64,000 bases of DNA from Aeromicrobium sp. PE09-221 (GTDB lineage Bacteria > Actinomycetota > Actinomycetes > Propionibacteriales > Nocardioidaceae): the NCBI RefSeq assembly GCF_002174305.1, contig NZ_MIJB01000005.1, positions 62,001 through 126,000 of the forward strand. The letters run 5' to 3'. Below are positions 16,448 through 57,929 of the stretch, one piece after another. Position 1 is the first letter of the stretch; every line of letters begins with the position of its first letter. Under the pieces are notes generated by a model. The model searched no databases. It worked only from the letters and a program-made list of their open reading frames with translations, and had not been told where the DNA came from. Position numbers and translations under genes: made by a program.

Positions 16448-16454
16448 GAGAGAC

Positions 16455-38061: not shown

Positions 38062-38149
38062 TTATCCACAGGCCCTGTGTATGTCTGGGGAGAACCGGTG
38101 GGAAACGCCGAGCAGCTTGTGCACAGACCGTGGAAGACTCTGTGGACAA
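38062..38149. promoter_or_regulatory. Cluster of DnaA boxes between dnaB and the MATE gene
   Basis: TTATCCACA at 38062-38070 (+) is a consensus DnaA box. TTGTGCACA at 38117-38125 (+) differs by one base from the high-GC consensus TTGTCCACA, and TTGTCCACA itself is at 38149-38141 (-). Three boxes in 90 bp is far above chance. The gap (37946-38324) holds no gene. They may regulate dnaB or titrate DnaA; oriC itself is not here, as dnaA and dnaN are absent. Confidence 0.65.
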
Positions 38150-38324
38150 GACTGATTCCGCGCTCACCCGATGGGCTCTGACCTGCGAAAACACTCGACA
38201 CACCGTGTGGAGGAAAGAAACTTCGGCGTCCATGTTCCCGCGTGGACAGACCACTGTCGGGGATGCCCCATGGGCGCGTAAACTGCTCCACGATGCCCGT
38301 TTTCCCCATGTTCTCCCCAGCCCC

Positions 38325-39626
38325 GTGAGGGACATCGACCGGCGCATCCTCGCGATCTCGATCCCGGCCTTCGCCGCCCTCATCAGCGAGCCCCTGATGC
38401 TGATGGCCGACACCGCGATCATCGGCCATGTCGGCCGCACCGAGTTGGCCGGACTGGCCGCGGCATCCACGGTGCTGATGACGGTGGTCGGCCTGTGCAT
38501 CTTCCTCGCCTATGGCAGTACCGCCACAGTCGCGCGTCATCAGGGAGCAGGGGACGACCGGCGCGCCCTGCAGAGCGCGCTGGGAGGTGTCTGGCTCGCC
38601 CTCGGACTCGGTGTGATCCTCGGTGCCGGCCTGGCTGTGTTCGCCCGGCCCCTGGGACGCTCCCTCGCCAGCTCCCCACAGGTCGCCGATCTCGCCTACG
38701 ACTACCTCATCGTGGCAGCCGCCTCCGTCCCGGCGCTGCTGCTCGTGCTCGCCGCCACCGGCGCACTGCGCGGACTGCTCGATCTCCGTACTCCCCTCCT
38801 GGCCATGATCGCGGCGAACCTGGTCAATGTGATCATCACGCTGCTGCTCGTCCACGGTCTCGGGTGGGGGTTGCGCGGCGCCGCACTCGGCCTGGTGATC
38901 GCCCAGTGGTTCGCCGCCGTCTGGCTCTGCCTGGTCGTCATCCGTCGCGCACGCGCCGTCCGGGCGTCGGTCCGTCCCGATCTCGGCGAGGTGCTCACCG
39001 CCGCCGCGGACGGGGTGCCGCTGCTCGTACGCACCCTCACCCTGCGGATCTCGCTGATCATCGCGACCCTCGTGGCCGCCGGACTCGGCGACGCGCCGCT
39101 GGCCGCCCACCAGATCGCCACCACGGTCGTGTCCTTCCTGGCCTTCGCCCTGGACGCCCTGGCGATCGCCGGCCAGACCCTCACCGGTCGCACCCTCGGT
39201 GCCTCTGATGCCACCGGCACCCGCGCCATGACCCGGCGGATGATCGCCTGGGGCGTGGGAGCGGGGGTGGTCTTCGGTCTCGTGATCGCGGCCGCCTCAC
39301 CCCTCCTGGTGCGGGGCTTCACCTCCGATTCCCTCGTGCAGTCCACGGCCATTCCCGCCCTGCTCGTCGTCGCGGCGATCCAGCCGCTCTCCGGGGTGGT
39401 CTTCGTGCTCGACGGCGTGCTCATCGGTGCCGGGGACGGCGTGTACCTGGCCTGGGCGGGCATCCTCGTGCTCGCGCTCTATGCGCCGGCCGCTCTCGCC
39501 GTGGGCTGGCTGGACGCCTCATTCATGTGGCTGTGGGTCGCTTACGGGGTCTTCATCACCGCCAGGCTCGCAACGCTCTGGTGGCGTCAGCGCGGAGACG
39601 CCTGGATGGTGCTCGGCAGCCGTTGA
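38325..39626 (+). CDS. MATE-family efflux transporter (DinF type)
   Basis: A 433-residue protein with twelve helices. The N-terminus DIDRRILAISIPAFAALISEPLMLMADTAIIGHVGRTELAGLA is the DinF-subfamily pattern, followed by AYGSTATVARHQGAGD. It exports cationic or other small compounds with Na+ or H+ entry. The start is set at GTG 38325 because the conserved sequence begins 2 codons later; in-frame ATG 38232 is the alternative and would add 31 residues. TAAACT at 38279 is a reasonable -10. The C-terminus ends WMVLGSR, a piece repeated at 42779-42802. Confidence 0.9.
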   Translation: MRDIDRRILAISIPAFAALISEPLMLMADTAIIGHVGRTELAGLAAASTVLMTVVGLCIFLAYGSTATVARHQGAGDDRRALQSALGGVWLALGLGVILGAGLAVFARPLGRSLASSPQVADLAYDYLIVAAASVPALLLVLAATGALRGLLDLRTPLLAMIAANLVNVIITLLLVHGLGWGLRGAALGLVIAQWFAAVWLCLVVIRRARAVRASVRPDLGEVLTAAADGVPLLVRTLTLRISLIIATLVAAGLGDAPLAAHQIATTVVSFLAFALDALAIAGQTLTGRTLGASDATGTRAMTRRMIAWGVGAGVVFGLVIAAASPLLVRGFTSDSLVQSTAIPALLVVAAIQPLSGVVFVLDGVLIGAGDGVYLAWAGILVLALYAPAALAVGWLDASFMWLWVAYGVFITARLATLWWRQRGDAWMVLGSR

Positions 39627-39658: not shown

Positions 39659-41209
39659 TCATCGGCCGCCCGAGGGAGTGTGTCCTCGCCCGCGCAGGAC
39701 GAGAACCCCGGTGACCAGCAACGCGGTGAGGCCGACCAGCGAGGCGGCGACGGCAGCGTACGCCTGGAGGGCATCCGTCACGGCCACGTGGACTGCGTCG
39801 AGCAGTTCCGGTCCCGCGGGGCCGAGTGCCCTTGCCGCCGCGATTCCGTCATGGACGCTCTCGAGCGCACGGTCGCCGACGGGGTCGGGAACGCCACCGG
39901 GCATCATCTCGCCGAGCGACCCTCGATAGACGGCCGTCGCGACCGCACCGCCGGTGGCAGCGCCGAGTGCGGTGCCGAGCTCTCCTCCCACCTCCTGCGC
40001 GGCAGCCGCCGAACCCGTCTTCTCGTCCGGAACTCCCGCGATGATCAGGTCGCTGACCAGAGCCGCGGCCGCCCCCTGTCCGAATCCCACTATCGAGAAG
40101 GCCGCGACGACGACGGACAGCGACCTTCCCGGGTCGACCACGACCATGAGCACGAGAAGACCGGCGGCAGCGAGTGTGAGTCCTATCGCGACGACCACGA
40201 CCGGACGAATCCATCTCGTCAGCCGCGCGGCGAGCAACGAGCCGGCGATATTGAGCAGGATGTACGGAACCGTCCAGAGGCCCGCGCGCAAGGGGCTCAG
40301 CCCCACGACCCACTGCAGATGCTGGGTGAGCAGGTAGAACACGCCGACCACGCCCACCCCGGAGAGCAGGATCGTGACGAGAGAGACCGAGACGCGCGGG
40401 TTGGCCAGCAGCGCGAGGTCGAAGAGCGGATCGCGTAGCCGGCGCTGGCGACGCACGAAGACGGCGAGCACGAGGATGCCGACACCCACGGCCAGCGCAT
40501 TCATCCACAGCGGCCCGCCACCCTGGTCTCCGGCGGCCAGTTCCTGGAGCCCGTAGACCATCGCGAGCATTCCCGTCACCGACAGGATGGCGCTGGTGAG
40601 GTCGAGGCCGCCGGAGCCCCGGCCCGTGCGTTCGGGCAGCAGCCGGCGTCCGCCGACCAGTAACAGGACCATGGGTGGAATATTGATGAGGAACACCACG
40701 CCCCACCAGAAATGTTCCAGCAGCGCTCCTCCCAGTAACGGCCCGACGGCACCGCCGGCGGAGAAGGAGCTGAACATGATCGCGATCGCGGACCGCCGCT
40801 GCACATCGTCATGGAACATCACGCGTAGCAGCGAGAACAGCGAGGGCATCAATGTCGCTCCTGCCACCCCGAGCATCGCTCGGGCGGCGATCAGCATGGA
40901 CGCCGTGGTCGAGAAGGCCGCGAGGACCGACAGCAGGGCAAATGCCGCGCTGCCGATCAAGAGCAACCGCCGTGGCCCGATGCGGTCACCCAGACGTCCC
41001 ATCGTCACGAGGAAGCCGGCGATGAGGAACCCATAGACGTGCACGATCCACAAGGCCTGCGAGGCGGTCGGCTCCAGATCGGCACTGACTGTAGGAAGCG
41101 CCAGGAAGAGCACCGTCAGATCGGTCGACAACGCCAACATCGGAAGCACCAGCAGCGCGAGGCCGATCCACTCGCGGGGTCCGGCGCGCCGGACGACATC
41201 CTCCGTCAT
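39659..41209 (-). CDS. MFS drug transporter, DHA2 (14-helix) type
   Basis: A 516-residue protein with fourteen helices. The DHA2 pattern appears as LALLVLPMLALSTDLTVLFLALPTVSADLEPTASQALWIVHVYGF, motif A GRLGDRIGPRRLLLIG and the motif C-like GAVGPLLGGALLEHF. It exports drugs or dyes by proton antiport. Its ATG overlaps the FMN reductase stop by ATGA, so the two are cotranscribed, probably under the divergent TetR. Confidence 0.92.
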   Translation of the reverse strand: MTEDVVRRAGPREWIGLALLVLPMLALSTDLTVLFLALPTVSADLEPTASQALWIVHVYGFLIAGFLVTMGRLGDRIGPRRLLLIGSAAFALLSVLAAFSTTASMLIAARAMLGVAGATLMPSLFSLLRVMFHDDVQRRSAIAIMFSSFSAGGAVGPLLGGALLEHFWWGVVFLINIPPMVLLLVGGRRLLPERTGRGSGGLDLTSAILSVTGMLAMVYGLQELAAGDQGGGPLWMNALAVGVGILVLAVFVRRQRRLRDPLFDLALLANPRVSVSLVTILLSGVGVVGVFYLLTQHLQWVVGLSPLRAGLWTVPYILLNIAGSLLAARLTRWIRPVVVVAIGLTLAAAGLLVLMVVVDPGRSLSVVVAAFSIVGFGQGAAAALVSDLIIAGVPDEKTGSAAAAQEVGGELGTALGAATGGAVATAVYRGSLGEMMPGGVPDPVGDRALESVHDGIAAARALGPAGPELLDAVHVAVTDALQAYAAVAASLVGLTALLVTGVLVLRGRGHTPSGGR

Positions 41210-41829
41210 CGACGCGCCTGCCTCGCGAGTCGGGCGGGACGCAGAGCACGCGCCCACCAGATCAGTTCGTCGTAGAAGTTGCCGGCGGCCCTGCTCACGC
41301 GTGCCGGGTCCGCGGGAACCCCACTCTCGTCGAAGACCTCCCAGAAATCAGGGAAGCTCAGGACATTGCGGATCGTCATCGTACCCAGCTCGACGAACAC
41401 CGTGCGCAACTGCTCGACGGCCTCGATCCCGCCCGTGCGACCGCCATAGGAGACGAAACCGACCGGCGTGGCGGACCACTCGGAGTTGAACCAGTCGATC
41501 GCGTTCTTCAACGAAGCCGGGTAGCCGCGGTTGTACACCGGGGTGACGATGACGATCGCATCGGCCGCCTCGATCTGGTCACCGAGGGCGGTGACATCGG
41601 ACGGCGCGGCTCGCCCCTTGTCGCCGAGATCGGCGGGCAGGTCCAGATCGGCCAGATCGGTGATGGCCAGTTCGATGTCGTCTCGTAGACGGGCTCGCTC
41701 GGCGAGCCAGGATGCCGGAACGTGTCCGAAGCGGCCGGTGCGGACGCTGCCGATCACCATCAGGACTCGCATCCGCTTGGCGGTGTCCGTCATCACGCGG
41801 GTGTCACCGGGTTCAATCTTCGTCGTCAT
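41206..41829 (-). CDS. NADPH-dependent FMN reductase (flavodoxin-like)
   Basis: A 207-residue flavoprotein: LMVIGSVRTGRFGHVPASWL (FMN phosphate loop) and IVIVTPVYNRGYPASLKNAIDWFNSEW with the isoalloxazine-binding loop. It reduces FMN, quinones, azo or nitro compounds with NADPH. ATG 41829 is preceded by AGGAGGAG, choosing it over internal starts. It leads an operon with an MFS exporter, a pairing typical of inducible detoxification of quinones or nitroaromatics. Confidence 0.9.
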   Translation of the reverse strand: MTTKIEPGDTRVMTDTAKRMRVLMVIGSVRTGRFGHVPASWLAERARLRDDIELAITDLADLDLPADLGDKGRAAPSDVTALGDQIEAADAIVIVTPVYNRGYPASLKNAIDWFNSEWSATPVGFVSYGGRTGGIEAVEQLRTVFVELGTMTIRNVLSFPDFWEVFDESGVPADPARVSRAAGNFYDELIWWARALRPARLARQARR

Positions 41830-41943: not shown

Positions 41944-42624
41944 ATGGGACAGCGCAGTGCGGGTGCCGCCAAGGGAGCGAGCGGACGACCGCGCGACCGG
42001 CAGATCGATCAGTCGGTCATCGAGACCACCCTCGCGATCCTGGACGCCGAGGGGTATGCCGGCGTCTCCTTCGAGGCCGTCGCCCGCCGTGCCGGGACAT
42101 CCAGACCCGCTGTGTACCGGCGTTGGTCGACCCGGGCCGCACTCGTGCTGGCCGCCGTCGGCGAACGTCTCGACATTCCCGATCCACCGGACACCGGCTG
42201 CACCTTGTGCGATATCGGCGAGAGCTTCGACCTGTTCCTCGCCTCCTACCGCACGATCCGCCCTGAATCCCTCAGCGCGCTCTATGCCGAATGCGCCACG
42301 GACCCCGATCTGCGCGCTTCCTATCTGGAGACGATCATCGAACCGACGCGCACCGCCGTCGGCATCGCGGTCGACCGAGCGATCGCGCGCGGCGACCTAC
42401 GACCGGACTCCAACCGAGAGGTGCTCCTCGACCTCGTCGGGTCGCTCGTGCACTACCGCAGCATGTTCAGCCCCGACCATCTCAGCGACGACGATGCCTG
42501 GTCGGCCGTCGAGACGCTCCTCCGCGGGGCGGCGCGAGACTATCCCGCTCTCCTGGCCCACAGCGAGGAGCTGGAGAGGCAGCACCTCGACGCCTCGCAC
42601 GGCCAGCATCACCATCCCCACTGA
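41944..42624 (+). CDS. TetR-family repressor of the FMN reductase/MFS operon
   Basis: A 226-residue regulator. The HTH reads VSFEAVARRAGTSRPAVYRRWSTRAALV, the AcrR-type pattern with a TetR_C ligand domain (ALYAECATDPDLRASYLETIIEPTR). The C-terminal tail is His-rich (ASHGQHHHPH) and may bind metal or simply be disordered. It is divergent from its probable target operon, with a palindromic operator in between. Confidence 0.88.
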   Translation: MGQRSAGAAKGASGRPRDRQIDQSVIETTLAILDAEGYAGVSFEAVARRAGTSRPAVYRRWSTRAALVLAAVGERLDIPDPPDTGCTLCDIGESFDLFLASYRTIRPESLSALYAECATDPDLRASYLETIIEPTRTAVGIAVDRAIARGDLRPDSNREVLLDLVGSLVHYRSMFSPDHLSDDDAWSAVETLLRGAARDYPALLAHSEELERQHLDASHGQHHHPH

Positions 42625-42662: not shown

Positions 42663-42742
42663 CGGTCAGCGCCGCCAGTAGCCGGTGACGTCGAAGCAGT
42701 CACGGGCGACACCACGGTCGTTCTTCAGATAATCGCGGACCA
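42663..42742 (-). pseudogene. Duplicate 3' end of the SIP gene (island left boundary)
   Basis: The minus strand reads VRDYLKNDRGVARDCFDVTGYWRR then TGA, the C-terminus of the siderophore-interacting protein whose full gene is at 62886-63671. Compared by eye with 62883-62962, 71 of 80 bases match, the first 32 without difference. The remainder of the gene is absent here. The differences show it is not a recent copy of the gene in this genome. Confidence 0.85.
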
Positions 42743-42759
42743 CGGTCGGCTCGTTCACG

Positions 42760-42802
42760 AGGCTCTGGGTCGCCTACGTGGATGGTGCTCGGTGCCCGCT
42801 GA
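42760..42802 (+). pseudogene. Possible 3' end of a second MATE gene
   Basis: TGGATGGTGCTCGG then GCCCGC TGA (42779-42802) encodes WMVLGAR-stop, against WMVLGSR-stop at the end of the MATE gene (39603-39626). TRLWVAY in a shifted frame just upstream resembles ATLWWRQR. Short, so tentative. It directly follows the SIP remnant. Confidence 0.4.
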
Positions 42803-42814
42803 CGATTCAGTCGA

Positions 42815-44434
42815 TCAGTGATCTCCCGGGTCGGGGATGCTCGCGGTATCCAGGACCACCTCGACGAGAATGGGTCCCGGACGTTCGAGCGCGCGTGCGA
42901 GCGCGTCGAAATCGCTCCATTCGGTCACCCGGAGCTCCCTGCCCCCGAGGGCATCGGCGATGCCCGCAAAGCTCGGCCACGAGAAGGTCGTCAACGTGGG
43001 GTCGAAATCCTGATTGACGAAGCGGTAGTACTCGGCGCCGTAGGCATTGTCGTTGAGCAGCACCACGACGAGGTTCGCGTCGTAGCGCACGGCTGTGTTG
43101 AACTCCGTCAGCCCGCCGAGCATGAAGCCGCCATCGCCGACCACCACCAAGGTCCGCGCATCCGGTCGTGCGAATGCCGCGCCGATGCCGTACCCGACGC
43201 TAAGACCGATGTGCCCCACGTTGAGACAGTGGGCATAACGGCACGGATGGGCGACGTCCAGAATGCGAAGCGCTTCATGGGAGAACCGCCCGCCATCGAT
43301 GCACAAGGACCGGTCGGGATCGACGAGTTGATTGACCCGATGCAGCACGCCGGTGAGGGTCAATGGTCCGGTGCCCTGCGCTGCGGACCAGTCCTTGCGT
43401 CGAAAGTCCTCGACCTTGCGGGCCATGTCCTCGGACCTGAAACCCGATGCGGGGGCGCCGGCCTCGTCGAGGATCTCGATCAGTTCAGTCGCCGCCACGC
43501 CGGCGTCAGCGACGATCGCGAGGTCCACCGGGAAGTAACGCCCCAGTGCTCCTGGATCAGAATCGATCTGGACGACGCGCTTACCCTCCAACAACTCCCC
43601 TTTGAGCGTCGTCAGCGAGGTCAGCGCACCGCCGAACACCACCAGGCAGTCGCTGCGTGCGATCGTCTCGCTCGCCACCGGGTTGGCCAGGGTTCCGCAG
43701 ATGCCCACCAGGCACGGGTCGTCGGCGAACAGACCTTTGCCTCTCAACGTCGTGGCGACCGGCGCTCCGAGGCGCTCAGCCAGCTTGGTCAGCGCCGCCT
43801 CGGCGTCACGTGCCCCGCGCCCACCGATCAGGAGGGGGCGACTCGAGCCGATGAGGACGCCGGCCGCCTCCTCCAATGCCTCACGCGAGGGCCGGGCCAC
43901 CCCTTCCTCGATCACTGTCGCCCTCGGGAACTCCATCGAGCACTGCGCCTGATGGAAGTCGCTCGGGATACCCAGGACCACGGGGCGGCGAGCCGACGAC
44001 GCCGACCGAAATGCAGCGGCGAGATCCAACGCGGCTGTCTGCGGAGAGCGGACTTCGCGGTACTCCGCACCGGTCGGCGCGACGACCTCCCGCTGAGGAA
44101 TGTTCTGCAGGTGCATCCCCTCGGCCCGCGACGTGTCGCCCGCGATGACGAGCACCGGGTAGCCGCCGCGAACGGCGTCGAAGAGCGCGCTCACGCAGTT
44201 CGCGATGGCACCGTGGGTGACCGTGGCCACGCCGACGCGGCCCGTGACCGCGGCATGCCCCGCTGCCATGAGCACCGCTCCCCCTTCGTTCGCGGAGGAC
44301 ACGAAGCACGCGCCCGGCAGCCGGTGAAAGCTGTCGGCGATGTACATATTCGCATCGCCCATGACACCGAACATCCGGTCGACGTCGAGCGATCGGAGCG
44401 CCTGTGCGAAGAGTTCGTTGAATGTGCCGCGCAC
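42815..44434 (-). CDS. TPP-dependent enzyme, acetolactate synthase/benzoylformate decarboxylase family
   Basis: A 539-residue protein with the three domains of the family. The catalytic glutamate E50 lies in SSANEGGAVLMAAGHAA. The TPP-binding motif runs from GDGGFMLGGLTEFNTAVRYDANLVVVLLNDNAYG near residue 440-475. Domain 2 (FGGALTSLTTLKGELLEGKRVVQIDSD) lacks the obvious FAD-binding set of true acetolactate synthase, so it more likely decarboxylates a 2-oxoacid or acts as a lyase or ligase. Located at the left end of the island, 30 bp after the TRAP genes, it may process a 2-oxoacid such as an arylglyoxylate or a pathway product. Confidence 0.82.
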   Translation of the reverse strand: MRGTFNELFAQALRSLDVDRMFGVMGDANMYIADSFHRLPGACFVSSANEGGAVLMAAGHAAVTGRVGVATVTHGAIANCVSALFDAVRGGYPVLVIAGDTSRAEGMHLQNIPQREVVAPTGAEYREVRSPQTAALDLAAAFRSASSARRPVVLGIPSDFHQAQCSMEFPRATVIEEGVARPSREALEEAAGVLIGSSRPLLIGGRGARDAEAALTKLAERLGAPVATTLRGKGLFADDPCLVGICGTLANPVASETIARSDCLVVFGGALTSLTTLKGELLEGKRVVQIDSDPGALGRYFPVDLAIVADAGVAATELIEILDEAGAPASGFRSEDMARKVEDFRRKDWSAAQGTGPLTLTGVLHRVNQLVDPDRSLCIDGGRFSHEALRILDVAHPCRYAHCLNVGHIGLSVGYGIGAAFARPDARTLVVVGDGGFMLGGLTEFNTAVRYDANLVVVLLNDNAYGAEYYRFVNQDFDPTLTTFSWPSFAGIADALGGRELRVTEWSDFDALARALERPGPILVEVVLDTASIPDPGDH

Positions 44435-44464
44435 GCTTCGTCCTTCCCTAGGGTGGAACGTCGG

Positions 44465-45757
44465 TCATGAAACCGCGAACAGGATGGTGTTCGGTACCGC
44501 GATGAAGACGCCGAGGGAGGCGAAGTACGGCACGTAGTAGGGATTGACGCCGCGGAAGACCGTCATGACGTCGAGCGACTTATCCAGACCGGCGGTGATG
44601 AAGACATTGACCCCGACCGGCGGCGTCACGGACCCGAGGGTCGTGACGAGTGTGACGATGATCGTGAACCACACCAGGTCGTAGCCGAGCGCCGTCACCA
44701 GCGGGAAGAAGATCGGGATGCTGATGACGAGGAAGCCGAGAGCATCCATGATGGCGCCGCCGACCAGGTAGATCGCGATGACCACCATGAGGATGAAGAA
44801 CGGCGCGACCTGGAGATTCGATACCCATTCGGCGAGTTCGAAGGGCATACGGGTCACCGACAGGAACCGTCCGAAGACCACCGCCCCGGCGATCAACAGG
44901 ACCACCATGGCCGAGGTCCGTAGCGTCCCTACGATGGACTTGCGCAGCACCTCGACCGTCAGGGACCGGTTCACAGCGGCGATGACCAGCGCACCGAGGG
45001 CACCGACCGCCGCCGCTTCGCTGGGAGTGAACCAACCGGCGAAGAGGCCGCCGACCGCCAGCAGGAAGAGGATGCCGGTCTCCACCACACCCTTGAGTGA
45101 GCTGAACCGCTCCGTCCAGGTCGCCTTGGGGCCCGGCGGACCGTACTCCGGCCTGAGGCGGCAGATCACCATGACGGTGATGACCAACAGGACGCCCACG
45201 AAGATCCCCGGCCACAGCGCGGCCTGAAAGAGGCGGCTGATCGACTGCTCGGATTGGACGGCGATGATGATGAGGGCGGTCGACGGCGGAATGAGGACCC
45301 CGAGCGTCCCGCCGATCGCCACCGCTCCCCCGGCGACGCGAGGGTTGTAGCCGTACCGCTTCATCTCCGGCAGCGCCACTGACCCCATCGTGGCGGTCGA
45401 GGCCGAGTTGGAGCCGGAGACGCAGCTGAACGCGATGCTGGCCAGGATCGTCGTCGCGGCGACACCACCGGGGAAGTGCCCGATCCACGCGTAGGCGGCC
45501 TTGAAGAGCTTGCCGCTCATCCCCGTGTGAAAGATGACCATGCCCATGAGGATGAACAGCGGCACGACTGCGAGGCCGTACGACGACATCTGCCGGTACA
45601 CGTCGGCGGCGACGAGCTGTAAGCCCGCTGCCGGCCCGAGCACGATCGTGGAGCCGGCGAGGCCGACCGCCAGCATCGCGAACGACACCGGCATCCGCAG
45701 GAAGAGCAGTGCGAACATCACGAGGATGCCCAACACCGCGAGAGTCGTGGGGTCCAT
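44465..45757 (-). CDS. dctM: TRAP transporter large membrane subunit DctM
   Basis: A 430-residue protein with about twelve helices: LRMPVSFAMLAVGLAG at the start, FSCVSGSNSASTATMGSVALPEMKRYGYNPRVAGGAVAIGGTLGVLIPPSTALIIIA with the Na+-binding region. It is the main membrane component of a tripartite sodium-coupled importer of carboxylates. It follows dctQ and dctP on the same transcript. The cargo is probably an aromatic or other organic acid feeding the island's pathway. Confidence 0.95.
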   Translation of the reverse strand: MDPTTLAVLGILVMFALLFLRMPVSFAMLAVGLAGSTIVLGPAAGLQLVAADVYRQMSSYGLAVVPLFILMGMVIFHTGMSGKLFKAAYAWIGHFPGGVAATTILASIAFSCVSGSNSASTATMGSVALPEMKRYGYNPRVAGGAVAIGGTLGVLIPPSTALIIIAVQSEQSISRLFQAALWPGIFVGVLLVITVMVICRLRPEYGPPGPKATWTERFSSLKGVVETGILFLLAVGGLFAGWFTPSEAAAVGALGALVIAAVNRSLTVEVLRKSIVGTLRTSAMVVLLIAGAVVFGRFLSVTRMPFELAEWVSNLQVAPFFILMVVIAIYLVGGAIMDALGFLVISIPIFFPLVTALGYDLVWFTIIVTLVTTLGSVTPPVGVNVFITAGLDKSLDVMTVFRGVNPYYVPYFASLGVFIAVPNTILFAVS

Positions 45758-45794
45758 CTGTACTCCTTGGGGTGGGGACCGAGGGCGTCAGCGG

Positions 45795-46313
45795 TCAGAA
45801 CACGTTCAGCTCGGGGTCCTCGGTCGACCACGAGAGGGCGCCGCGGGCGAGGTCGGCCACCAGGGCGAGCACGAGGCCGGCGAAACCGACCACGACGACG
45901 TACACCGCGGGCCAGAACGGGATGCCGAGCGACTCCGTAGCCGATCCCTGGGCTCGCATGACCTGGCCGTACACGACGAGGCTCGTGATGACCTGGACGA
46001 ACAGCGCGATCGAGACGATCGTGACGACGGACGCCACGACGATCCGGATGCGGCGAGGCCAGTGGCGGACGAGCAGGTCGATCGACACGTGAGCCCCGTG
46101 GTTCTGGGCGTCGCCGAGCGACAGCCCGAAGACCACCGCCGCCAGCATCGCGACGACCTCGAAGGTGCCGTTAAGCGGTGAACCCGCGACACGCATCACG
46201 ATGTTCGCGATGAGCGCGAGCATGACGAGCACGAGGCAGACCGAGGCGACCCGCACCATGCCGGTGTTCAGCAGCCCGGCGAATCGCACGACCCGCTGCA
46301 GGACGGCGGTCAC
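45795..46313 (-). CDS. dctQ: TRAP transporter small membrane subunit DctQ
   Basis: A 172-residue protein with four helices and the family pattern VFGLSLGDAQNHGAHVSIDLLVRHWPRRIR. It forms the membrane complex with DctM. The GTG start (46311-46313) overlaps the TGA of dctP (GTGA), fixing the N-terminus. Confidence 0.92.
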   Translation of the reverse strand: MTAVLQRVVRFAGLLNTGMVRVASVCLVLVMLALIANIVMRVAGSPLNGTFEVVAMLAAVVFGLSLGDAQNHGAHVSIDLLVRHWPRRIRIVVASVVTIVSIALFVQVITSLVVYGQVMRAQGSATESLGIPFWPAVYVVVVGFAGLVLALVADLARGALSWSTEDPELNVF

Positions 46314-47350
46314 TGCTCGTCCTTCTGATGCTCGTCGGCCAGCTCGCGCATCCGGTCGAGGACGGCCTGGGCGTCGAGGTCCGCCGAGTCGTTGCGGCTC
46401 ACCCACTCGGCCGAGACCTCGTCGAGGACCTCGTCCCACTGGGGCCTTTCGGAGGCGTCCACCTCGACGGTCTCGACACCCTGCTCCTCGGCGAATTCCA
46501 GTGCGGACCCGATGTTCTCGCCGTCGTGGTACTCCGCCGCCCACTGCATCATCTCGGTCTTGAGGTCCTGGATGGCGTCCTTGACGTCGTCGGGCAGCGA
46601 GTCGTAGCGCTCCTGGTCCATCACGGCGACGAAACTGTTCGAGGGACCGAATGGGTAGTCGGTGATGTGTGAGACGTGCTCGGCGAGCCCGAAATCCTCG
46701 AGCACCTCCCGCGAGGACACGTAGCCGCTGACCATGCCGGTCTGAAGCGCCTCGGCCACGTCCGGCATGGGCATGCCGATCGGCGAAGCGCCCAGTCGCT
46801 CGAGAACCGGGATGGTGGCACTCGAGCTCCGCAGCTCGAGCCCGTTCATGTCCGCCGTCGTGGTGATCGGACGGCTCGACTGGATGTAGGACGGCTCGGT
46901 CGTGAAGGCGGTGATGATCTCGTAGCCGTCGAACTCTGGCGGCTCCAGCTCGGTCAGCAGCTCGAGGAACACAGCGCTGGCCGTCGTCGCGTCGGTGATG
47001 CCGATCGGCACCTGGATGGCCGAGGACACCGGGAAGCGTGATGAGTCGTAGGCGGGGCTGTCGAGTCCGATGTCGACGGTGCCGGCCGAGACGCCATCGT
47101 AGATGTCTCCAGAGCCCAGCAACGTGCCGCCGGTGAACAGCTCGACCTCCACAGCGCCGTCGGTGCGCTCCTCCATCTCTTCCTTCCACCGTTCCATCTG
47201 CAGGCTCGGGAAGGACTCGGCAGGCGCGAAGAACGCGTACCGCAGGGTGACGGGGCCGTCACCCTCGCCGCCGGTGGACCCTCCCGCGGTACAGCCGACG
47301 AGCAAGGCCGCAGCGACAGCAGCGGGGATGATGCGGGACAGAACTGACAT
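46310..47350 (-). CDS. dctP: TRAP transporter substrate-binding lipoprotein DctP
   Basis: A 346-residue binding protein. The signal peptide ends in the lipobox LVGC (Cys20), so it is lipid-anchored outside the membrane. The conserved ligand-binding arginine segment is probably LELRSSSATIPVLERLGASPIGMPMPDVAEALQTGMVSGY. It captures the substrate and delivers it to DctQM. The promoter has the island motif ACCC-N4-GGGT at 47417-47428 upstream of TAGCGT. Confidence 0.93.
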   Translation of the reverse strand: MSVLSRIIPAAVAAALLVGCTAGGSTGGEGDGPVTLRYAFFAPAESFPSLQMERWKEEMEERTDGAVEVELFTGGTLLGSGDIYDGVSAGTVDIGLDSPAYDSSRFPVSSAIQVPIGITDATTASAVFLELLTELEPPEFDGYEIITAFTTEPSYIQSSRPITTTADMNGLELRSSSATIPVLERLGASPIGMPMPDVAEALQTGMVSGYVSSREVLEDFGLAEHVSHITDYPFGPSNSFVAVMDQERYDSLPDDVKDAIQDLKTEMMQWAAEYHDGENIGSALEFAEEQGVETVEVDASERPQWDEVLDEVSAEWVSRNDSADLDAQAVLDRMRELADEHQKDEQ

Positions 47351-47385
47351 GGTTGCCTCCTCGGCAAGACCTGAACTGTCTCAGC

Positions 47386-47428
47386 ACGCTAGCCGTCCGA
47401 TGGGGCTCCCGGCGTAACCCAAAGGGGT
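47386..47428 (-). promoter_or_regulatory. Island operator and promoter of the TRAP operon
   Basis: ACCC-AAAG-GGGT at 47417-47428; TAGCGT (-10) at 47391-47386. The operator centre is 31.5 bp from the -10, equal to about -43 from the transcript start. Member 1 of five similar sites. Confidence 0.65.
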
Positions 47429-47503
47429 ACACCTGGGCGCTGAAAGCGCTGTCATCCCGGAGCCTGAGGCACAGTCGGAACCACAACCGAGCGAGGAGAA
47501 CCC

Positions 47504-47899
47504 ATGTCCCAGGACGCGCAGGACTACGTTGACGACATCGCGCGGAGACGCGGTTATGTACTGGAGTACCACCAACGGATGGCCGCAGCGGATGTCGACG
47601 TACTCCGAGCGGCCGACGGTCTCGTCACCGCCGCCTACCTCGCGCCACGGTCCTTGGACCGCAAGACCAAAGAGCTCTTGTTCGTCCTGAGCCTGACCGT
47701 CATGCGGGCAGATCCGGACCACATCGCGAGCCATATCCGGGTCGCCCTCGAGCACGGCGCCACCGCGCAGGAAGTGCTCGAGGCGATCGAGATCGCGTTG
47801 CCCGAAGCCGGGGTCGTGGCCTTTCAGCACGGGTTCGCGGTGTGGGCCGAGGTCACCGGCGCCCCACGCATCACGCCCTCGGAGGCTGTCAGGCGCTGA
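47504..47899 (+). CDS. Carboxymuconolactone decarboxylase-family protein
   Basis: A 131-residue CMD-fold protein: RSLDRKTKELLFVLSLTVMRADPDHIASHIRVALEHGATAQEVLEAIEIALPEAGV. The AhpD-type Cys-x-x-Cys is absent, so it is not a peroxidase-type enzyme; it may be a decarboxylase or isomerase in aromatic breakdown. Start ATG 47504 with GCGAGGAG. It overlaps the end of the reductase gene by 11 nt and is divergent from dctP. Confidence 0.85.
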   Translation: MSQDAQDYVDDIARRRGYVLEYHQRMAAADVDVLRAADGLVTAAYLAPRSLDRKTKELLFVLSLTVMRADPDHIASHIRVALEHGATAQEVLEAIEIALPEAGVVAFQHGFAVWAEVTGAPRITPSEAVRR

Positions 47900-49040
47900 G
47901 CGGTGCTCGAGAGAGGATCGCCGAGCGGTGGTGAGTGAGTTCTCGGGCGGCGTTGACGCAGAGCGCCCCGATCTGAGCTCCCTGTCGCGCGTAGCCGACC
48001 ACCAGACGGTTGGCATCCCGATCGAGGATCTGCACATCGTCGGCCGCATGAGCCCGACCGACGAAGCGAAGGCTGGCGCCGAACTGGTCGGACCAGAAGT
48101 ACGGGACCGGTGAGAACGGCTCGTCGGATCCGAGAAGCACCGAAGCTGCGTGACGCCCCTGATCGACGGCGTTCTTCCAGTGCTCGACGCGAATCGACTC
48201 GTCGAAGAGCGGGTGGTACCAGCGCGTCACGTCGCCGGCGGCGACGATATCGGGGGCACTCGCTCGCAGCGTCCGATCGCAGAGCACACCATCGGCGATC
48301 CCCAACCCGCTGCTGCGCAACCAGTCCACCTCGGGACGGGCACCGACAGCAGCTACCACCACGTCGGCCACGACGGCCGTTCCGTCGCCGAGCCACACGC
48401 GGTAGCGGCCGGCCACCGGTTCGACCTCGACCGCGAGCCGACCCGTGACGAGTTCGACCCCGTGGGTGCGGTGAAGATCGGCGAGCCACGAACCGACGTC
48501 ATCGCCGAGGTCGCGGGCCAGGGGCACGGGAGCGACCTCGATGACGGTCGACCGCAGCCCCAGTTCCGTCACGGTCGCTGCGACCTCGAGCCCGATGAAG
48601 CCTCCCCCGATGACGGCGACGTGCTCGACGCTACCGAGCCTCTCTCGCAGCACGGCAGCGTCGTCCAACGTGCGCAAGAAGTGCACGTGTTCGTTGCCGG
48701 CGCTCAGGCGCCGGGGCGCGGCCCCCGTCGCGATGATCAGACCGTCGTAGGAGAGCGCACGGTCATCCTCGAGGATCACCACCCGCGCTTCGGTGTCGAG
48801 CGCGCGGGCGGGGGTGCCGAGCTCCAGCCGCACGCCGGCTTCCGCGTACCAGGCGGGGTCGCGCAGCGGCGAGGGCATGGGTTCGCCACGCAACGCTTCT
48901 TTGGACAGCGGAGGGCGATCATACGGAAGATGGCGTTCCGCCCCGACCAGGACGATCTCGCCGGTGAAGGCCTCGCCGCGCAGCGCTTCGATGGCATGGA
49001 CCGCGGCGAGCGAGCCGCCCACCACGACGATCCGCTCCAT
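47889..49040 (-). CDS. NAD(P)H-dependent ferredoxin reductase (first copy)
   Basis: A 383-residue flavoprotein of the oxygenase-coupled type (BphA4/ThcD). The FAD motif is VVVGGSLAAVHAIEALRG; PYDRPPLSKEAL follows; the NAD motif is VAVIGGGFIGLEVAATV; FAD binding by APDIVAAGDVTRW and the C-terminal YFWSDQFGASLRFVG. It passes electrons from NAD(P)H to the [3Fe-4S]-type ferredoxin and so to the Rieske oxygenase. A second copy lies at 57930. The promoter carries the island operator. Confidence 0.92.
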   Translation of the reverse strand: MERIVVVGGSLAAVHAIEALRGEAFTGEIVLVGAERHLPYDRPPLSKEALRGEPMPSPLRDPAWYAEAGVRLELGTPARALDTEARVVILEDDRALSYDGLIIATGAAPRRLSAGNEHVHFLRTLDDAAVLRERLGSVEHVAVIGGGFIGLEVAATVTELGLRSTVIEVAPVPLARDLGDDVGSWLADLHRTHGVELVTGRLAVEVEPVAGRYRVWLGDGTAVVADVVVAAVGARPEVDWLRSSGLGIADGVLCDRTLRASAPDIVAAGDVTRWYHPLFDESIRVEHWKNAVDQGRHAASVLLGSDEPFSPVPYFWSDQFGASLRFVGRAHAADDVQILDRDANRLVVGYARQGAQIGALCVNAARELTHHRSAILSRAPLSA

Positions 49041-49097
49041 GGTGCGTCCTCCTGGTTTCGGCAGTATTTCCCCCAGAGTGACACTGCGCCATCGAGC

Positions 49098-49143
49098 GGC
49101 CTACGCCCAGACCCCGTCCGCAATGTCACCCGCTCGGGTGACA
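49098..49143 (-). promoter_or_regulatory. Island operator (20-bp palindrome) and promoter of the first reductase gene
   Basis: TGTCACCCGCTCGGGTGACA at 49124-49143 has perfect 8-bp arms and is the most symmetrical of the five sites (ACCC-N4-GGGT at 49128-49139). TAGGCC at 49103-49098 is the -10, 30.5 bp from the centre. It also lies 130 bp upstream of the divergent luxR-type gene, so autoregulation is possible. Confidence 0.7.
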
Positions 49144-49272
49144 CGAAAGGGGCTGTGTTCGGTCGCTCATCTCACTTAGGATGGCCGGCAACCCTCAGGC
49201 TCCCGCGTGAGGTCGAACACGTCTCCGCATGCTGCTCGGGCGCCCCGACGTCCGAACTCCAGGAGGATGTCC

Positions 49273-50325
49273 ATGTCCGTCGATCACCATCGCCATCTCT
49301 TCACGAACGCCCTGCAGTCGGCGCTGACCCGCACCGAAGTCACCCGCGCCTACCTCGCACACGTGGGCGACGTCGTGCCCGCCGACGGCCTCGGCCTGTA
49401 CGAACTCCACCCCGAGCAAGGCGTCATCGACGTCCGCGCCACGGTCGGTGGGGAGCTTCTCGACGACTACGAGGACTACGGCCGCCAGGACGACCCGGTC
49501 CTGAGGTTCGTCACCGAACAACACCGACCCATCGATTCATCGCGCGTCTGCGCGCCCCATACGTGGAACGCCTGTGGTGCGCGCAACGCCCTCGCCCGCG
49601 AGAACTTCGAGCATTCGATGGAGGCGCCGATCATCGTCTCGGGGGTGCTGTTCGGCACGATCAACTTCGCGCGACCCGGCGACTGTCCGCCGTTCAGCGA
49701 GACCGACCTCACCTCGGCCCGCTTCGTCAGCGAGCAGCTCAGCCTCGCGACGGAGCGGGCCGTGCGCTATGAGTTGACCGGCTACCGGGCGAGCGCCATC
49801 GAGCACGCGCTCGACCGTCTTCCGCAGGCGGTGGTCGTGACCGACCTGGACGCTCAGTTCATCTTCTGCAACCGGTCCGCCCGCGATGAGTGGCAGATCG
49901 GTCCCGACGAGGCGGCGATCGGCAACGACTCGATCACCGGGTTCATCGAAGAGGCGATGACCGCTTTCCGCGCCGAGAACCGCCGCGTGGTGGCCCGCAC
50001 CGTCCGCGACGCCAAGACCGGCCGACAGGCCGTGGTGAAGTCCTACCGCCTGTCAACGAAGGACCGCACCGCCGTGACCATGGTCTTCGGTACCGACGGG
50101 GGGAATGAGCGTCTGCTCCCGGACTGGGGCGTCCTCACCCGCCGCGAACAGGAGATCGCTCAGCTGGTCAGTGAAGGGCTGACCACCAAGGAGATCGCCT
50201 CACGAGCCTTCATCAGCGAGAACACCGTCAAACAGCACCTCAAGCGCATCTTCGCGAAGACCGACGTCAGCAACAGGGCGGAATTGGTCCAGCTCATCTG
50301 GACGTCGCGGCAATCACTGGACTGA
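49273..50325 (+). CDS. LuxR-family regulator with N-terminal GAF/PAS sensor domains
   Basis: A 350-residue regulator. Residues 10-170 look like a GAF domain (LGLYELHPEQGVIDVRATVGGELL, then APIIVSGVLFGTINFARPG). Residues 185-275 form a PAS-like domain (ALDRLPQAVVVTDLDAQFIFCNRSA). The C-terminal HTH is LTRREQEIAQLVSEGLTTKEIASRAFISENTVKQHLKRIF. Start ATG 49273 is 6 nt after AGGAGG; the in-frame ATG 49267 is too close to it. It is the only regulator in the island and the best candidate to bind the five ACCC-N4-GGG sites and activate transcription when a pathway compound binds GAF or PAS. Confidence 0.88.
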   Translation: MSVDHHRHLFTNALQSALTRTEVTRAYLAHVGDVVPADGLGLYELHPEQGVIDVRATVGGELLDDYEDYGRQDDPVLRFVTEQHRPIDSSRVCAPHTWNACGARNALARENFEHSMEAPIIVSGVLFGTINFARPGDCPPFSETDLTSARFVSEQLSLATERAVRYELTGYRASAIEHALDRLPQAVVVTDLDAQFIFCNRSARDEWQIGPDEAAIGNDSITGFIEEAMTAFRAENRRVVARTVRDAKTGRQAVVKSYRLSTKDRTAVTMVFGTDGGNERLLPDWGVLTRREQEIAQLVSEGLTTKEIASRAFISENTVKQHLKRIFAKTDVSNRAELVQLIWTSRQSLD

Positions 50326-50330
50326 CGGAC

Positions 50331-51517
50331 TCACCCTCGCCGGACGCGGCCGACGAGGAGTCCCATGAGCGCTTGGATCACCGCGAGTCCGAGGACGACC
50401 GCCACCACCACGACGCTGGAGGCGGTCGCCTGCTTCGCCCAGCCGACGAGCAGCAGCCCGATCGTGACGCCGGCGTAGCCGACGTTCTGCACCATCGACG
50501 ACAGCGGTCCCGAATCCACCCCGACCGCCGATCTCAACGGGATCAGCGACAAGGCCACCACCATCGAGGCGCCGGCGCCGAATCCCGCCAGCCCCACCCA
50601 GACAAGCGCAGCGGACGGCCATATCCACAGGCCGAGGATCGCCACGAGCACGATGCCAGGCACGAGAGTGGTCGTCATCCGCTGATCGCCGCCGACGTTT
50701 ACGAAGGGCGGCACCACCACGTTGGCCGCGATGCCGACGATGAGGAAGGTCCCCAGGTGGACGCCGGCGGCCCGTGCCGAGACCCCCAACCCCTGTTCGA
50801 TCGTGGGCAGCCATCCGAGCGGCAGGTAGAAGATGCAGGACTGCACGCCGAAATAGGTCGCCAGCTGCCAGGCGAACGGAGATCTCCAGGGAGAGCCGAG
50901 CCGCGGCGGCACGGGCGCTGACCTGTGCTGACGGCCCGCTGCGGCGCGGCCAACGCGATGACCACCGGCACGACCCACACCCCGAGTGCCGTCTGCCACC
51001 CGCGGTCCATCGCCACCGGAACCGCCACCGCCGCCGCGACTGCGGCGACGGCGCTCTGCAAGGCGATGTAGTGCCCGGTCACGGCGGGGACCCGGGTCGG
51101 AAAATCCCGGCGGGTGAGGACCGGCAGCAGGACATTGGCGATCGCGATGCCGCCACCGAGCACGGTGGTGCCCATGACGAGGGCCGCCACCGGCGCGCCC
51201 GGCACCGGCAGCGAGCGCAGCGCGATGCCCAGGGCCGCGAGACCAAGCGCGATGATCACGGCGGTCTCCACGCCCAATCGTGCCGCGATTCGATGCCCGA
51301 AGGGGGAGACGAGAGCGAACGCCGCGATGGGAGCCGCCGTCACCACGCCCTGGACGGCCTCGGAGAGCGCGAGGTCGTCGGCGATCACCGGCAACACCGG
51401 CCCCACGGCGGAGATCGAGGCTCGCAGGTTGGCCGCGAGGACGAGGATCGCGATGAAGGCAACGGCCGAGTACCCCAGGCGCCGCTGCCCCGTCGCTTCA
51501 TCGTCCGCACCGAGCAT
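50331..51517 (-). pseudogene. MFS transporter, CynX/NimT type, frameshifted
   Basis: The N-terminal half (LAANLRASISAVGPVLPVIADDLALSEAVQGVVTAAPIAAFALVSPFGHRIAARLG) reads to PQRAVSTGQ near 50925. A frame change between about 50905 and 50935 follows. The second half continues in another frame as SPFAWQLATYFGVQSCIFYLPLGWLPTIEQG to the TGA at 50331. Joined, they make a normal twelve-helix protein of about 395 residues. It would transport a small aromatic or related acid. Since TRAP genes are intact, uptake may not depend on it. Assembly error is possible. Confidence 0.82.
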
Positions 51518-51554
51518 CGTCAGCGACCAGCGGTGCCCGGACGCCGGCGCCCGA

Positions 51555-52328
51555 TCATGGCCGTCGACCTCCGTCGGTGTTGATGACGGCGCCCGTCGTC
51601 AACCGTGCGGCGCGCCGGTCGGCGAGGTAGAGGTAGGCGCCGGCATGGTCCTCTGGGCACGCGGCCTCACCGAGCAGCGCGCCGGCCGCGATCCGCTCAT
51701 CGCGACCCGGCACGGTCGCTGCGGTCTCGCGCTGCTCCAGGGAGGCCAGACCACCGAATCGCGTGCCGGACGTGCCCCCTGGCGCGACGCCGTTGACGCG
51801 CACGTCAGGGGCCAGGTCCACCGCGAGATGGGCCACCGCTCCCCGCAGCGCCCATTTGGAGCTGCCGTAGAGCACGCCTCCGCCCACGGGATGGAACGCC
51901 GACTCCGACAGCGTCAGCGTCACCGATCCCCGAGTCCGCACGAGCGCCGGATAGGCGGCCCGCACCGCCTGGAGCGCACTCAGCACGTTCAACCGCCAGA
52001 CCTCCTGCGCGGCGGCAGTGAGCTGTGCGGCGTCGAGGGAGCGCACCGAGACGTACTGGTCGAAGATGCCGACACAGCACGTGAGGTGGTCGAGTCCCGC
52101 CTCCCCCGCTGCCCGGGCAACGGCGTCATCGAGCAGGTCGGGGTCCGTCGCGTCCGCCACCATGACGTCGAGCCGCTCGTGATCTGGCAGCTCGGCCGCG
52201 TGAGCCGCCGAGCGCTCGACCACGGTGACCTGGGCGCCCGCGCCGAGGTACGCGAGTGCGGCGGCCCGGCCGATGCCAGAGCCGCCACCTGTTACGAGGA
52301 CGCGCTGCCGGTCGAGGGCCCCGCTCAC
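51555..52328 (-). CDS. cis-Dihydrodiol dehydrogenase (SDR family)
   Basis: A 257-residue short-chain dehydrogenase. NAD-binding VTGGGSGIGRAAALAYLGAGA, the BphB-like segment DHLTCCVGIFDQYVSVRSLD in place of the usual NNAG, catalytic serine in LTLSESAFHP and YGSSKWAL with Tyr and Lys. It rearomatises the cis-dihydrodiol made by the Rieske dioxygenase to a catechol, producing NADH. ATG overlaps the companion-protein stop (ATGA), coupling it to the dioxygenase genes. Confidence 0.88.
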   Translation of the reverse strand: MSGALDRQRVLVTGGGSGIGRAAALAYLGAGAQVTVVERSAAHAAELPDHERLDVMVADATDPDLLDDAVARAAGEAGLDHLTCCVGIFDQYVSVRSLDAAQLTAAAQEVWRLNVLSALQAVRAAYPALVRTRGSVTLTLSESAFHPVGGGVLYGSSKWALRGAVAHLAVDLAPDVRVNGVAPGGTSGTRFGGLASLEQRETAATVPGRDERIAAGALLGEAACPEDHAGAYLYLADRRAARLTTGAVINTDGGRRP

Positions 52329-52600
52329 TGACCCGGGTTCCGGGACAGCAACTCGGTGATGAGTTCAGGCTCCTGGAAGCTGAGGCAGTCGAGGGCGACC
52401 GCATCGAGGAGAACGCGGCTCCCGCGACGCGGCGACCAGATATCGAGCCGCATCCCGTTGCGGGTCTCCACCTTGCGCACCACGACGTCGGTGAACTCGT
52501 TGGCGATGACGATCGGTCCGTCGTTACCGCCGTCGCTGGGGTACTCGGACACGTCGCCGATCTCGGGACGTTCGAACATCGGGTCGGGCTGAGAGGTCAT
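52325..52600 (-). CDS. Small companion protein of the Rieske dioxygenase operon
   Basis: A 91-residue protein: IVIANEFTDVVVRKVETRNGMRLDIWSPRRGSRVLLDAVALDCLSFQEPELITELLSR. Proteins of this shape occur between ring-hydroxylating dioxygenase and dihydrodiol dehydrogenase genes in Actinobacteria and are often labelled dihydrodiol dehydrogenase in databases, although they lack an NAD-binding fold. Function unknown. The start is set at ATG 52598-52600 (MTSQPDPMFERPEIG); a longer frame extends into the beta-subunit gene. It is translationally coupled to the SDR gene. Confidence 0.8.
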   Translation of the reverse strand: MTSQPDPMFERPEIGDVSEYPSDGGNDGPIVIANEFTDVVVRKVETRNGMRLDIWSPRRGSRVLLDAVALDCLSFQEPELITELLSRNPGQ

Positions 52601-52616
52601 CGGGTCACCGTCCGGC

Positions 52617-53144
52617 TCAGATGAAGATGGACATGTTGTGGGCATTGATGAGGGACTGGTCGAAGGCCGCCCACCGTCGGGCGATCTCCCACCCGGCCGG
52701 CGTCGCAGCGCGGCGCACGGTGTCCTTGCGGAACAACGAGTAGAAGCTCGGCGTGGGTTCGTCACCCCGGCTGCGATAGATGAAGCAGTTCGACTGCACG
52801 AGGTATTCGTTCTCCACGTCGCCGGGATCGACGACGACGTTGGTGACGAAGTGGCGGGTGCGCGAGGGCGGTTGTTCGGCCCAGGCGAAGTCCGTCTCGA
52901 GCCGCTGCACCCGCACTTCCAACGTCGCTTTGGTGTCGTCGAAGATCCGCGAGGTCGGCGCGAGCTCCCAGTCGGCGAGCGCCTCCCGGGTGACTCGGAC
53001 CGGCACCTCGTAACGGATGTCGGCGGCCAGGTACTCCAGCCAGTCGCGGAAGCGTCGCTCGTCGAGGGCGAGCGCTTCGCGATAAAGGAAGTCCTGCAGG
53101 CTCATACGGGTCTCGAGGTCGACCTGTGTCGTCGTGGCGGACAC
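52617..53144 (-). CDS. Aromatic-ring-hydroxylating dioxygenase, beta subunit
   Basis: A 175-residue protein of the SnoaL/NTF2-like fold: LQDFLYREALALDERRFRDWLEYLAADIRYEVPVRVTRE and the C-terminal TPAGWEIARRWAAFDQSLINAHNMSIFI. It forms the alpha3beta3 hexamer with the alpha subunit encoded 3 nt upstream. It is structural and may influence substrate range. Confidence 0.94.
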   Translation of the reverse strand: MSATTTQVDLETRMSLQDFLYREALALDERRFRDWLEYLAADIRYEVPVRVTREALADWELAPTSRIFDDTKATLEVRVQRLETDFAWAEQPPSRTRHFVTNVVVDPGDVENEYLVQSNCFIYRSRGDEPTPSFYSLFRKDTVRRAATPAGWEIARRWAAFDQSLINAHNMSIFI

Positions 53145-53147
53145 GGC

Positions 53148-54464
53148 TCACACCTCCCCGACCAGGTAGTCGGCCCACCGGCTCCACAGGTTGCGGAAGT
53201 TGGTGTCGTTCACGTACGGCCGCACGACGTGGCCCGGCCCTGAGAAGTCCTTGTCGCGCTCGCTCTCCATCCCCATGATGTAGGGGAAGTCGACGTTCTT
53301 GACCATCGTCGAGCCGGCAGCTCGGGTGACCTTCGTCCAGTTCTCGAAGTCGTCCTGCTCGAAGGTCCCCGCCTGTCCGAATGCCAAGGTGTACGCGCGG
53401 TACGCCTCGTCCTTGTACTCCTGCGAGGCGTCCTTGGGGACGAGGCACCAGGAGTACATCTCCATCCGTCCCGGACCGGCCGGGTGGTAGAGCCGCATCG
53501 TCACGAACCGCACCCCGGGTTCGCCGGGGACGAGACTGAACGGCTGCATGAGGAACGAGAGGTTCGGGAAGACGGTGCCGACTGCGGTCCGCACCTGTGA
53601 GAACACCTCCACCTGCTCGGGCGTGAACGAGGCCCGCATCCGCTCTGCCAGGTCGTCGGGGAACCCGCCGAACGGCGGGAAGTTCGGGCTGTGCCCCAAC
53701 CCGATGCCGTGACCCAGGCCCGGGATGCTCGCCGCCCACCCCTGGCTGTGCGTGGAGCCCGAGGACGGGAAGTACCCGAGGTTGAAGCCCCACTGGTGCG
53801 CCACCGGCGTGTGGTAGCCGTCGCCGGCGAAGTTCTCGGCGCAGATCTTCCAGTCGGTCTCCGCGACCCAGTGATCCGGCGGACCGTGCACCTCGCTGCC
53901 CTCGCCACCCTGCTTGAGGTAGAAGTCCAGATAGAACTGGAACCCTCCGAGGTACTCCTCCAGCGAGGGTGCGTCGGGGTCGAGGCAGCCGAACACGAGG
54001 CCGGCATACGAGTCCACGCGGACGTTGACCAGGCCCCAGTCCTTGCGCTTCAGCCGGCCCTCATAGCCCTCCTTCATGTACGGAACACCGATCAGCTCGC
54101 CGGAGTTCTTGTACGTCCAGCCGTGGTACGAGCAGCGGAAGTGCGAAGCGTTGCCCATCTCGGACTTGCAGAGCATGTTGCCGCGGTGGCGGCACATGTT
54201 GAGGTTGGCCGAGATGTCGCCGTGCTCGGTGCGCGCCACGATGATGTTGTTGTTCCCGATGTACCGGGTGACGTAGTCACCCGGCGCGGGGATCTCCGAC
54301 TCGTGGGCCAGGAAACACCAGGCCCGTGAGAACAGTCGTTCCTGTTCGAGGTCGTAAATCTGCTGATCGTTGAAGGCGCGGGCCGGGAAACGACCCTCAC
54401 TGATGCCCTGGCGGATGCCCTGGAGCTCGTCGTCCAGGGAGCGGTCGACGCTGGAGGAGGTCAT
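53148..54464 (-). CDS. Aromatic-ring-hydroxylating dioxygenase, alpha subunit (Rieske)
   Basis: A 438-residue catalytic subunit. The Rieske [2Fe-2S] cluster is bound by C91, H93, C111 and H114 (CRH...CSYHGW). The mononuclear iron site has E210-N211 then D215 (bridging), H218 and H223 in ENFAGDGYHTPVAHQ, with the third carboxylate probably in QDDFENW. It adds both atoms of O2 to an aromatic ring, giving a cis-dihydrodiol. The sequence around GDGYHT resembles actinobacterial polycyclic/heterocyclic aromatic dioxygenases. Electrons come through the [3Fe-4S]-type ferredoxin at 59123. The exact substrate is not readable. Confidence 0.95.
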   Translation of the reverse strand: MTSSSVDRSLDDELQGIRQGISEGRFPARAFNDQQIYDLEQERLFSRAWCFLAHESEIPAPGDYVTRYIGNNNIIVARTEHGDISANLNMCRHRGNMLCKSEMGNASHFRCSYHGWTYKNSGELIGVPYMKEGYEGRLKRKDWGLVNVRVDSYAGLVFGCLDPDAPSLEEYLGGFQFYLDFYLKQGGEGSEVHGPPDHWVAETDWKICAENFAGDGYHTPVAHQWGFNLGYFPSSGSTHSQGWAASIPGLGHGIGLGHSPNFPPFGGFPDDLAERMRASFTPEQVEVFSQVRTAVGTVFPNLSFLMQPFSLVPGEPGVRFVTMRLYHPAGPGRMEMYSWCLVPKDASQEYKDEAYRAYTLAFGQAGTFEQDDFENWTKVTRAAGSTMVKNVDFPYIMGMESERDKDFSGPGHVVRPYVNDTNFRNLWSRWADYLVGEV

Positions 54465-54470
54465 GGCAGG

Positions 54471-55514: not shown

Positions 55515-55548
55515 AGGGTGCTCCTCGTTCCTTGATGTAGACGTTCGT

Positions 55549-56642: not shown

Positions 56643-56703
56643 CGCTGTGCTCTCTCCTTGCCCGAGGTTTCCCCCGTCCCCATGCGGAATATCTCGCAAT
56701 TTC

Positions 56704-56745
56704 AATCTAGGACCGCCGGGGACGGGGGTCGTGACCCTTCCGGGT
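56704..56745 (-). promoter_or_regulatory. Island operator and promoter of the extradiol/Rieske operon
   Basis: ACCC-TTCC-GGGT at 56734-56745 with TGACCC/GGGTCA arms; TAGATT (-10) at 56709-56704, 30.5 bp from the centre. The distal half GGGTCAATTC (56742-56751) is repeated exactly at 61261-61270. The TSS would be near 56697, giving a leader of about 55 nt. Confidence 0.7.
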
Positions 56746-56761
56746 CAATTCGCTCGAGCGC

Positions 56762-57904: not shown

Positions 57905-57929
57905 GTGCATTTCTCCTTGGTGGTGGTGG

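Follow-up and report, generated by a model that had tools for sequence, protein, structure and literature searches.

At the locus analysed here, two sets of cargo genes lie between a gene for a MATE-family efflux protein and a gene for a siderophore-interacting protein (SIP), and short copies of the 3' ends of both border genes are joined between the two sets. The question raised is how both cargos came to be placed in a single gap, and why the tails of the border genes are found in the middle of it. The stretch of DNA studied (hereafter the window) comprises 64,000 nucleotides of a contig of Aeromicrobium sp. PE09-221, the genome of which (G000) is 4.0 Mb in 111 contigs. The features concerned are as follows, with G016 and G015 denoting two other Aeromicrobium genomes.

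38130..39626, + strand: MATE-family efflux gene, intact, left border of the proposed hotspot (TIGR00797, 260 bits; 94% amino acid identity to MATE of G016)
39659..41257, - strand: cargo A, MFS efflux transporter, LfrA/QepA-like, with scores under the equivalog cut-offs of these
41206..41829, - strand: cargo A, FMN-reductase-like protein, with weak NCBIfam matches
41944..42624, + strand: cargo A, TetR-family regulator (PF00440/PF16859)
42663..42741, - strand: SIP 3' remnant, 24 codons, the stop codon and 3 nt further
42748..42802, + strand: MATE 3' remnant, 31 and 24 nt flanking a 56-nt deletion, with a stop codon at its end
42803..62842, no strand given: catabolic island, with a collinear copy (86% DNA identity) between MATE and SIP in G015
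62886..63671, - strand: SIP gene, intact, right border of the proposed hotspot (PF04954/PF08021; 91% amino acid identity to G016)

The gene order is thus MATE, MFS, FMN reductase, TetR, SIP tail, MATE tail, catabolic island and SIP, as had been stated in the original prediction. The true start of MATE probably lies within the ORF given. The island encodes a TPP enzyme, a TRAP transporter, two ferredoxin-reductase-like proteins, a LuxR-type regulator, an SDR, the alpha and beta subunits of a Rieske oxygenase, a DHDPS-type aldolase, a LigB/LigA dioxygenase, a hydrolase, an amidohydrolase and an aldehyde dehydrogenase. The island's MFS transporter (50331-51517, - strand) is distributed over two ORFs that overlap in different frames, and in G015 a single ORF of 401 aa takes their place; judged from this, the gene looks frameshifted in the window. 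The ferredoxin-reductase-like genes at 47889-49040 and 57930-59126 are about 65-66% alike at the DNA level in cross-matches between the window and G015, and they are apparently an old pair of paralogues. No recombinase, integrase or transposase was found among the proteins scanned (a few small ORFs, e.g., 52325-52765, lay outside the scan). Base composition was uninformative as a mark of foreign origin, the GC content being nearly equal in the left flank (68.8%), cargo A (67.6%) and the island (68.0%). Two further blocks, at 3613-11497 and at 72227-76606 (in window coordinates, past its right end), had no match in the compared stretches of G015, G016 and G001 and are possibly other variable regions nearby.

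The scar formed by the two tails at 42663-42802 is real, and the predicted succession of a SIP 3' end and a MATE 3' end at the left boundary of the island was confirmed. The SIP remnant (42663-42741) and the end of the intact SIP gene (62883-62961) form a direct repeat of 79 nt with 90% identity (E 4e-26 in a word-size-7 search within the window), and the remnant is in frame with the final 24 codons and the stop codon of SIP. The differences had been put at about 9 of 80; the count obtained here is instead 8 in 79 nt. The MATE remnant could be aligned with the 3' end of the intact gene, which ends at 39626, over 31 and 24 nt on either side of a 56-nt internal gap, and its local score was 51.5, while none of 500 mononucleotide shuffles scored above 27.8. 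Judged by eye, unrelated sequences without homology are joined at the junction of the two tails. When 42640-42860 was searched against 245 genomes of the family, with at most three candidates scored per genome, matches at E<=0.001 were obtained in 55 genomes and were chiefly weak and short. Among these candidates the joined SIP and MATE tails occurred only in the window's own genome. In G016, G001 and G015 the SIP part of the query mapped to the end of the SIP gene and the MATE part to the end of the MATE gene, unjoined.

The gap between MATE and SIP was surveyed in 19 genomes, picked by a SIP match from 49 genomes of the genus, in which MATE and the best SIP match were placed. The original prediction assumed that the two genes converge around variable cargo, and this is the arrangement found: MATE and SIP lie next to each other in convergent orientation in all 19 genomes, and the content of the gap varies among species. 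Taken from one matched end to the other, the gap spans 23.3 kb in the window's genome and 20.1 kb in G015, and in the remaining 17 genomes it measures 9-563 bp. Three states could be distinguished, i.e., a short gap, the island, and the island together with cargo A. G015 carries the collinear island and no match to cargo A, and neither cargo is present in the gap of G016, the nearest relative, or of G001; the MFS gene of cargo A had no tblastn match in the stretches of the three genomes compared. The expected allele with the catabolic cargo alone therefore exists in G015, which has a matching left junction and no SIP remnant. The other expected allele, with the MFS/TetR cargo only, was seen in none of the genomes placed, as the gap is too short in 17 of the 18 others and G015 holds the island alone. 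In the genomes examined, the remnants were never met without the island. A small ORF of ~130-140 aa fills the same gap in G009, G014 and G045 (found by script) and in G003 and G004 (found by eye), and would be a further occupant of the hotspot in these five Aeromicrobium genomes.

The left end of the island was compared between the two genomes that carry it. The island of G015 begins 13 nt past the stop codon of MATE and adjoins the intact gene, with no SIP copy on its left. In the window, 12 nt separate the stop codon of the MATE remnant from the first stop codon of the island, and the alignment with G015 runs through the junction. The MATE remnant is therefore the original left neighbour of the island. 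In the island-free G001, the first 9 to ~20 nt past the MATE stop codon match too, up to CGATCAGTG, and this could be the target site or the site from which an island was lost.

Synonymous divergence showed movement of the island between lineages. Between the window and G015, the median pS (proportion of synonymous differences) was 0.37 in the island (13 genes) vs 0.51 in the backbone (19 genes; one-sided Mann-Whitney, p=1e-4), and from the lower value in the island it follows that it was transferred horizontally; vertical inheritance with losses in G016 and G001 is disfavoured for the same reason. The median pS of the backbone between the window and G016 was also 0.37 (18 genes), equal to that of the island between the window and G015; the transfer was not recent. 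For these estimates 20 island ORFs were picked by script and 13 were kept: those starting at 45709, 50331, 51114, 56394, 58237 and 58689 were taken out by hand because they were spurious, broken or short; that at 47504 was excluded as shorter than 140 codons. The true genes at 57930-59126 and 51555-52328 were missed by the script and are absent from the count. In the flanks, the ORFs at 12957, 28315 and 28963 were removed by hand and others did not pass the filters for length and for identity (60% amino acid identity for G015 and 70% for G016).

The two cargos had been expected to have different closest relatives, and this was confirmed: the triad of cargo A leads to G372, a genome of another family of the order, and the island leads to G015 and to the plasmid pUSK13_1. 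The complete MFS/FMN-reductase/TetR triad is present in G372 at 63, 62 and 69% amino acid identity, and the best relative of TetR (68-69%) is the one adjoining MFS and FMN reductase there. Within the other 48 genomes of the genus, the best match of the FMN reductase reached 46%, and cargo A is without a close relative in Aeromicrobium. Of 391 genomes of the order, two (the window's and G015) have LigB of the island at E<=1e-60, in both cases at the MATE-SIP locus. Core genes of the island occur in island order, at 56-86% amino acid identity, on plasmid pUSK13_1 of Rhodococcus sp. USK13 (10966-17041: amidohydrolase, ferredoxin reductase, hydrolase, LigA, LigB and aldolase). Genes for IS4-family, IS110-family and other transposases are located close to this block. 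A Rhodococcus plasmid is a possible travel route for the catabolic pathway; single-protein searches with the aldolase and TetR returned no plasmid with the entire locus.

The reading that we prefer, with a probability of about 0.6, is that the MATE-SIP gap is an integrase-free hotspot of Aeromicrobium in which an allele with the island was attached next to the resident allele with cargo, probably by one-sided homologous recombination together with illegitimate recombination. The ancestor of the window would have carried an allele of the form MATE-[MFS/FMN-reductase/TetR]-SIP, and DNA from an allele with the island, MATE-[island]-SIP, would have entered it. The incoming DNA would then have recombined homologously on its right side, within or past SIP, while its left end, broken inside MATE, would have been joined illegitimately in the resident SIP about 75 nt ahead of the stop codon. 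The island would thus have been placed beside the old cargo, with both gene tails persisting as the scar, which afterwards would have lost 56 nt and gained substitutions. Evidence against this reading is that cargo A alone lies between MATE and SIP in none of the 19 genomes placed. The original prediction had proposed that two versions of the locus were joined in tandem; the type of event stands, and this order could have arisen by several routes, literal tandem joining among them.

Traces of the homologous side were sought in the border genes. The similarity of MATE to G016 is even along its length, with no tract, and in SIP the differences between the window and G016 cluster near codons 172-221, where 42 of 104 fall within 50 codons (p=0.001 by simulation weighted for site variability). 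A homologous crossover may have left this tract, the importer being either the window or G016, and within it the window shows no unusual closeness to G015. Over its final ~40 codons the intact SIP resembles G016 again, with 2 differences in 75 nt. Because the 3' tail of SIP is G016-like and MATE is without a tract, no crossover point could be fixed. A gene for Ku, a requirement of one type of end joining, was present in all 4 genomes checked. ComEC is likewise encoded in all four; as 10 of 14 control genomes have it too, it says little.

It had also been claimed that the two versions came from different lineages, and on this point the two tails differ. At all eight coding sites where the SIP copies differ, the intact gene is identical to G016 and the remnant alone is changed (8:0, p=0.008), so that SIP does not demonstrate a second lineage; decay of a copy of the same lineage would be enough to produce these differences. 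Counted by hand, synonymous changes make up 5 of the 8 (p=0.04 vs an assumed 28%), an excess that speaks mildly against pure decay, and for both tails together the count is 10 of 18 (p=0.013 vs the same assumed 28%). Pure decay is also opposed by several remnant states that recur in other species. Between the intact and the remnant MATE tail there are 10 differences in 55 nt, and each tail differs from G016 at 5 of 55 (the 24-nt block was counted by hand), so an origin of the MATE tails from different lineages is plausible, on very little sequence (55 nt). In the trees, the SIP remnant and the intact SIP of the window fell together (support 73), and one MATE site united the intact gene and G016 against the remnant (support 81). 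The remnant trees comprised only 75 and 55 nt, with support of 54-81 around the remnants, and were rejected as arbiter of lineage since the sequences are too short.

Other routes to the same arrangement are possible, and in order of falling odds these are a mirror event, plain duplication and a permuted circle. In the mirror event, cargo A would have arrived anchored at MATE, and the final order would be the same. Rather doubtful is a literal tandem duplication within one lineage, in which the MATE-SIP unit was doubled by unequal exchange, each gap took up its own cargo, and a deletion from the first SIP to the second MATE left the two tails. It yields the exact order of the window, and the grouping of the SIP remnant with the window's SIP, with 8 of 8 differences on its own branch, is what a decayed same-lineage copy should give. 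However, the MATE tails differ from each other more than either does from G016, no further trace of duplication was found, and entry of the island into a duplicate is unneeded when an allele of the form MATE-island-SIP already exists in G015. A permuted circle is clearly less probable still. Here the donor would have had the order MATE-island-MFS/TetR-SIP, and a circle closed via the SIP and MATE tails would have been opened between the cargos on entry, which accounts for the native-looking 3' ends of both border genes as well as for both tails in the middle of the locus; yet no donor with both cargos was found, the cargos have unrelated relatives, there is no recombinase among the proteins scanned, and entry at the same gap would be a coincidence. 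Integration of a site-specific element at the 3' end of SIP is nearly excluded: the 20-kb island does lie between direct repeats of 79 nt derived from the 3' end of a gene, in the manner of att-type repeats, but the same island in G015 adjoins an intact MATE without a left SIP copy, the scanned proteins again offer no recombinase, and the MATE tail next to the left repeat is left unaccounted for.

Should one-sided joining be the correct reading, it suggests that foreign genes may accumulate at a single site with no enzyme devoted to their insertion. At most integrase-free hotspots only the result of an exchange can be seen, and here the junction itself is preserved. Moreover, it has a searchable signature, i.e., the 3' tails of convergent border genes joined in reverse order, from which it could be estimated how often cargo is added and how often it is swapped. 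One might speculate, quite tentatively, that convergent pairs like MATE and SIP are docks at which whole cargo alleles accrete serially by one-sided recombination, each leaving a tail-to-tail scar; if this were true, a genome-wide count of these scars could serve as a record of past joining of alleles between species. The type of process is already known; the new element is a clean case from nature, with relatives in the empty and single-cargo states. No description of the MATE-SIP locus was found among the titles and abstracts listed in searches on homology-facilitated illegitimate recombination (HFIR), Aeromicrobium genomic islands and hotspots with flanking core genes.

Three known systems can be compared with the window. 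Hotspots flanked by conserved core genes (Oliveira et al. 2017; PMC5635113) resemble the MATE-SIP gap in that relatives differ in the cargo of one gap, no mobility gene was seen and cargo is exchanged horizontally. Double recombination in the flanks of such hotspots would by our reasoning be expected to swap the cargo, whereas at MATE-SIP the old cargo was kept, the new one was added and a tail-to-tail scar was left. HFIR, as outlined for laboratory transformation and conjugation (PMC3240628), comes close in mechanism, since one homologous and one illegitimate junction would give the order of the window in a single step; its description comes from the laboratory, whereas the case of the window is deduced from a fossil junction, its homologous side being without a fixed position. 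The T6SS loci of Vibrio cholerae with their arrays of sequential displacement, and Rhs loci with strings of orphan 3' regions, for which HFIR has been proposed (PMC5361080), share with the window the arrival of a new module at a fixed locus and the retention of old gene parts behind it. Those loci keep immunity genes or the 3' ends of effectors, whereas the window keeps short tails of the border genes, and its cargos are efflux and catabolic genes.
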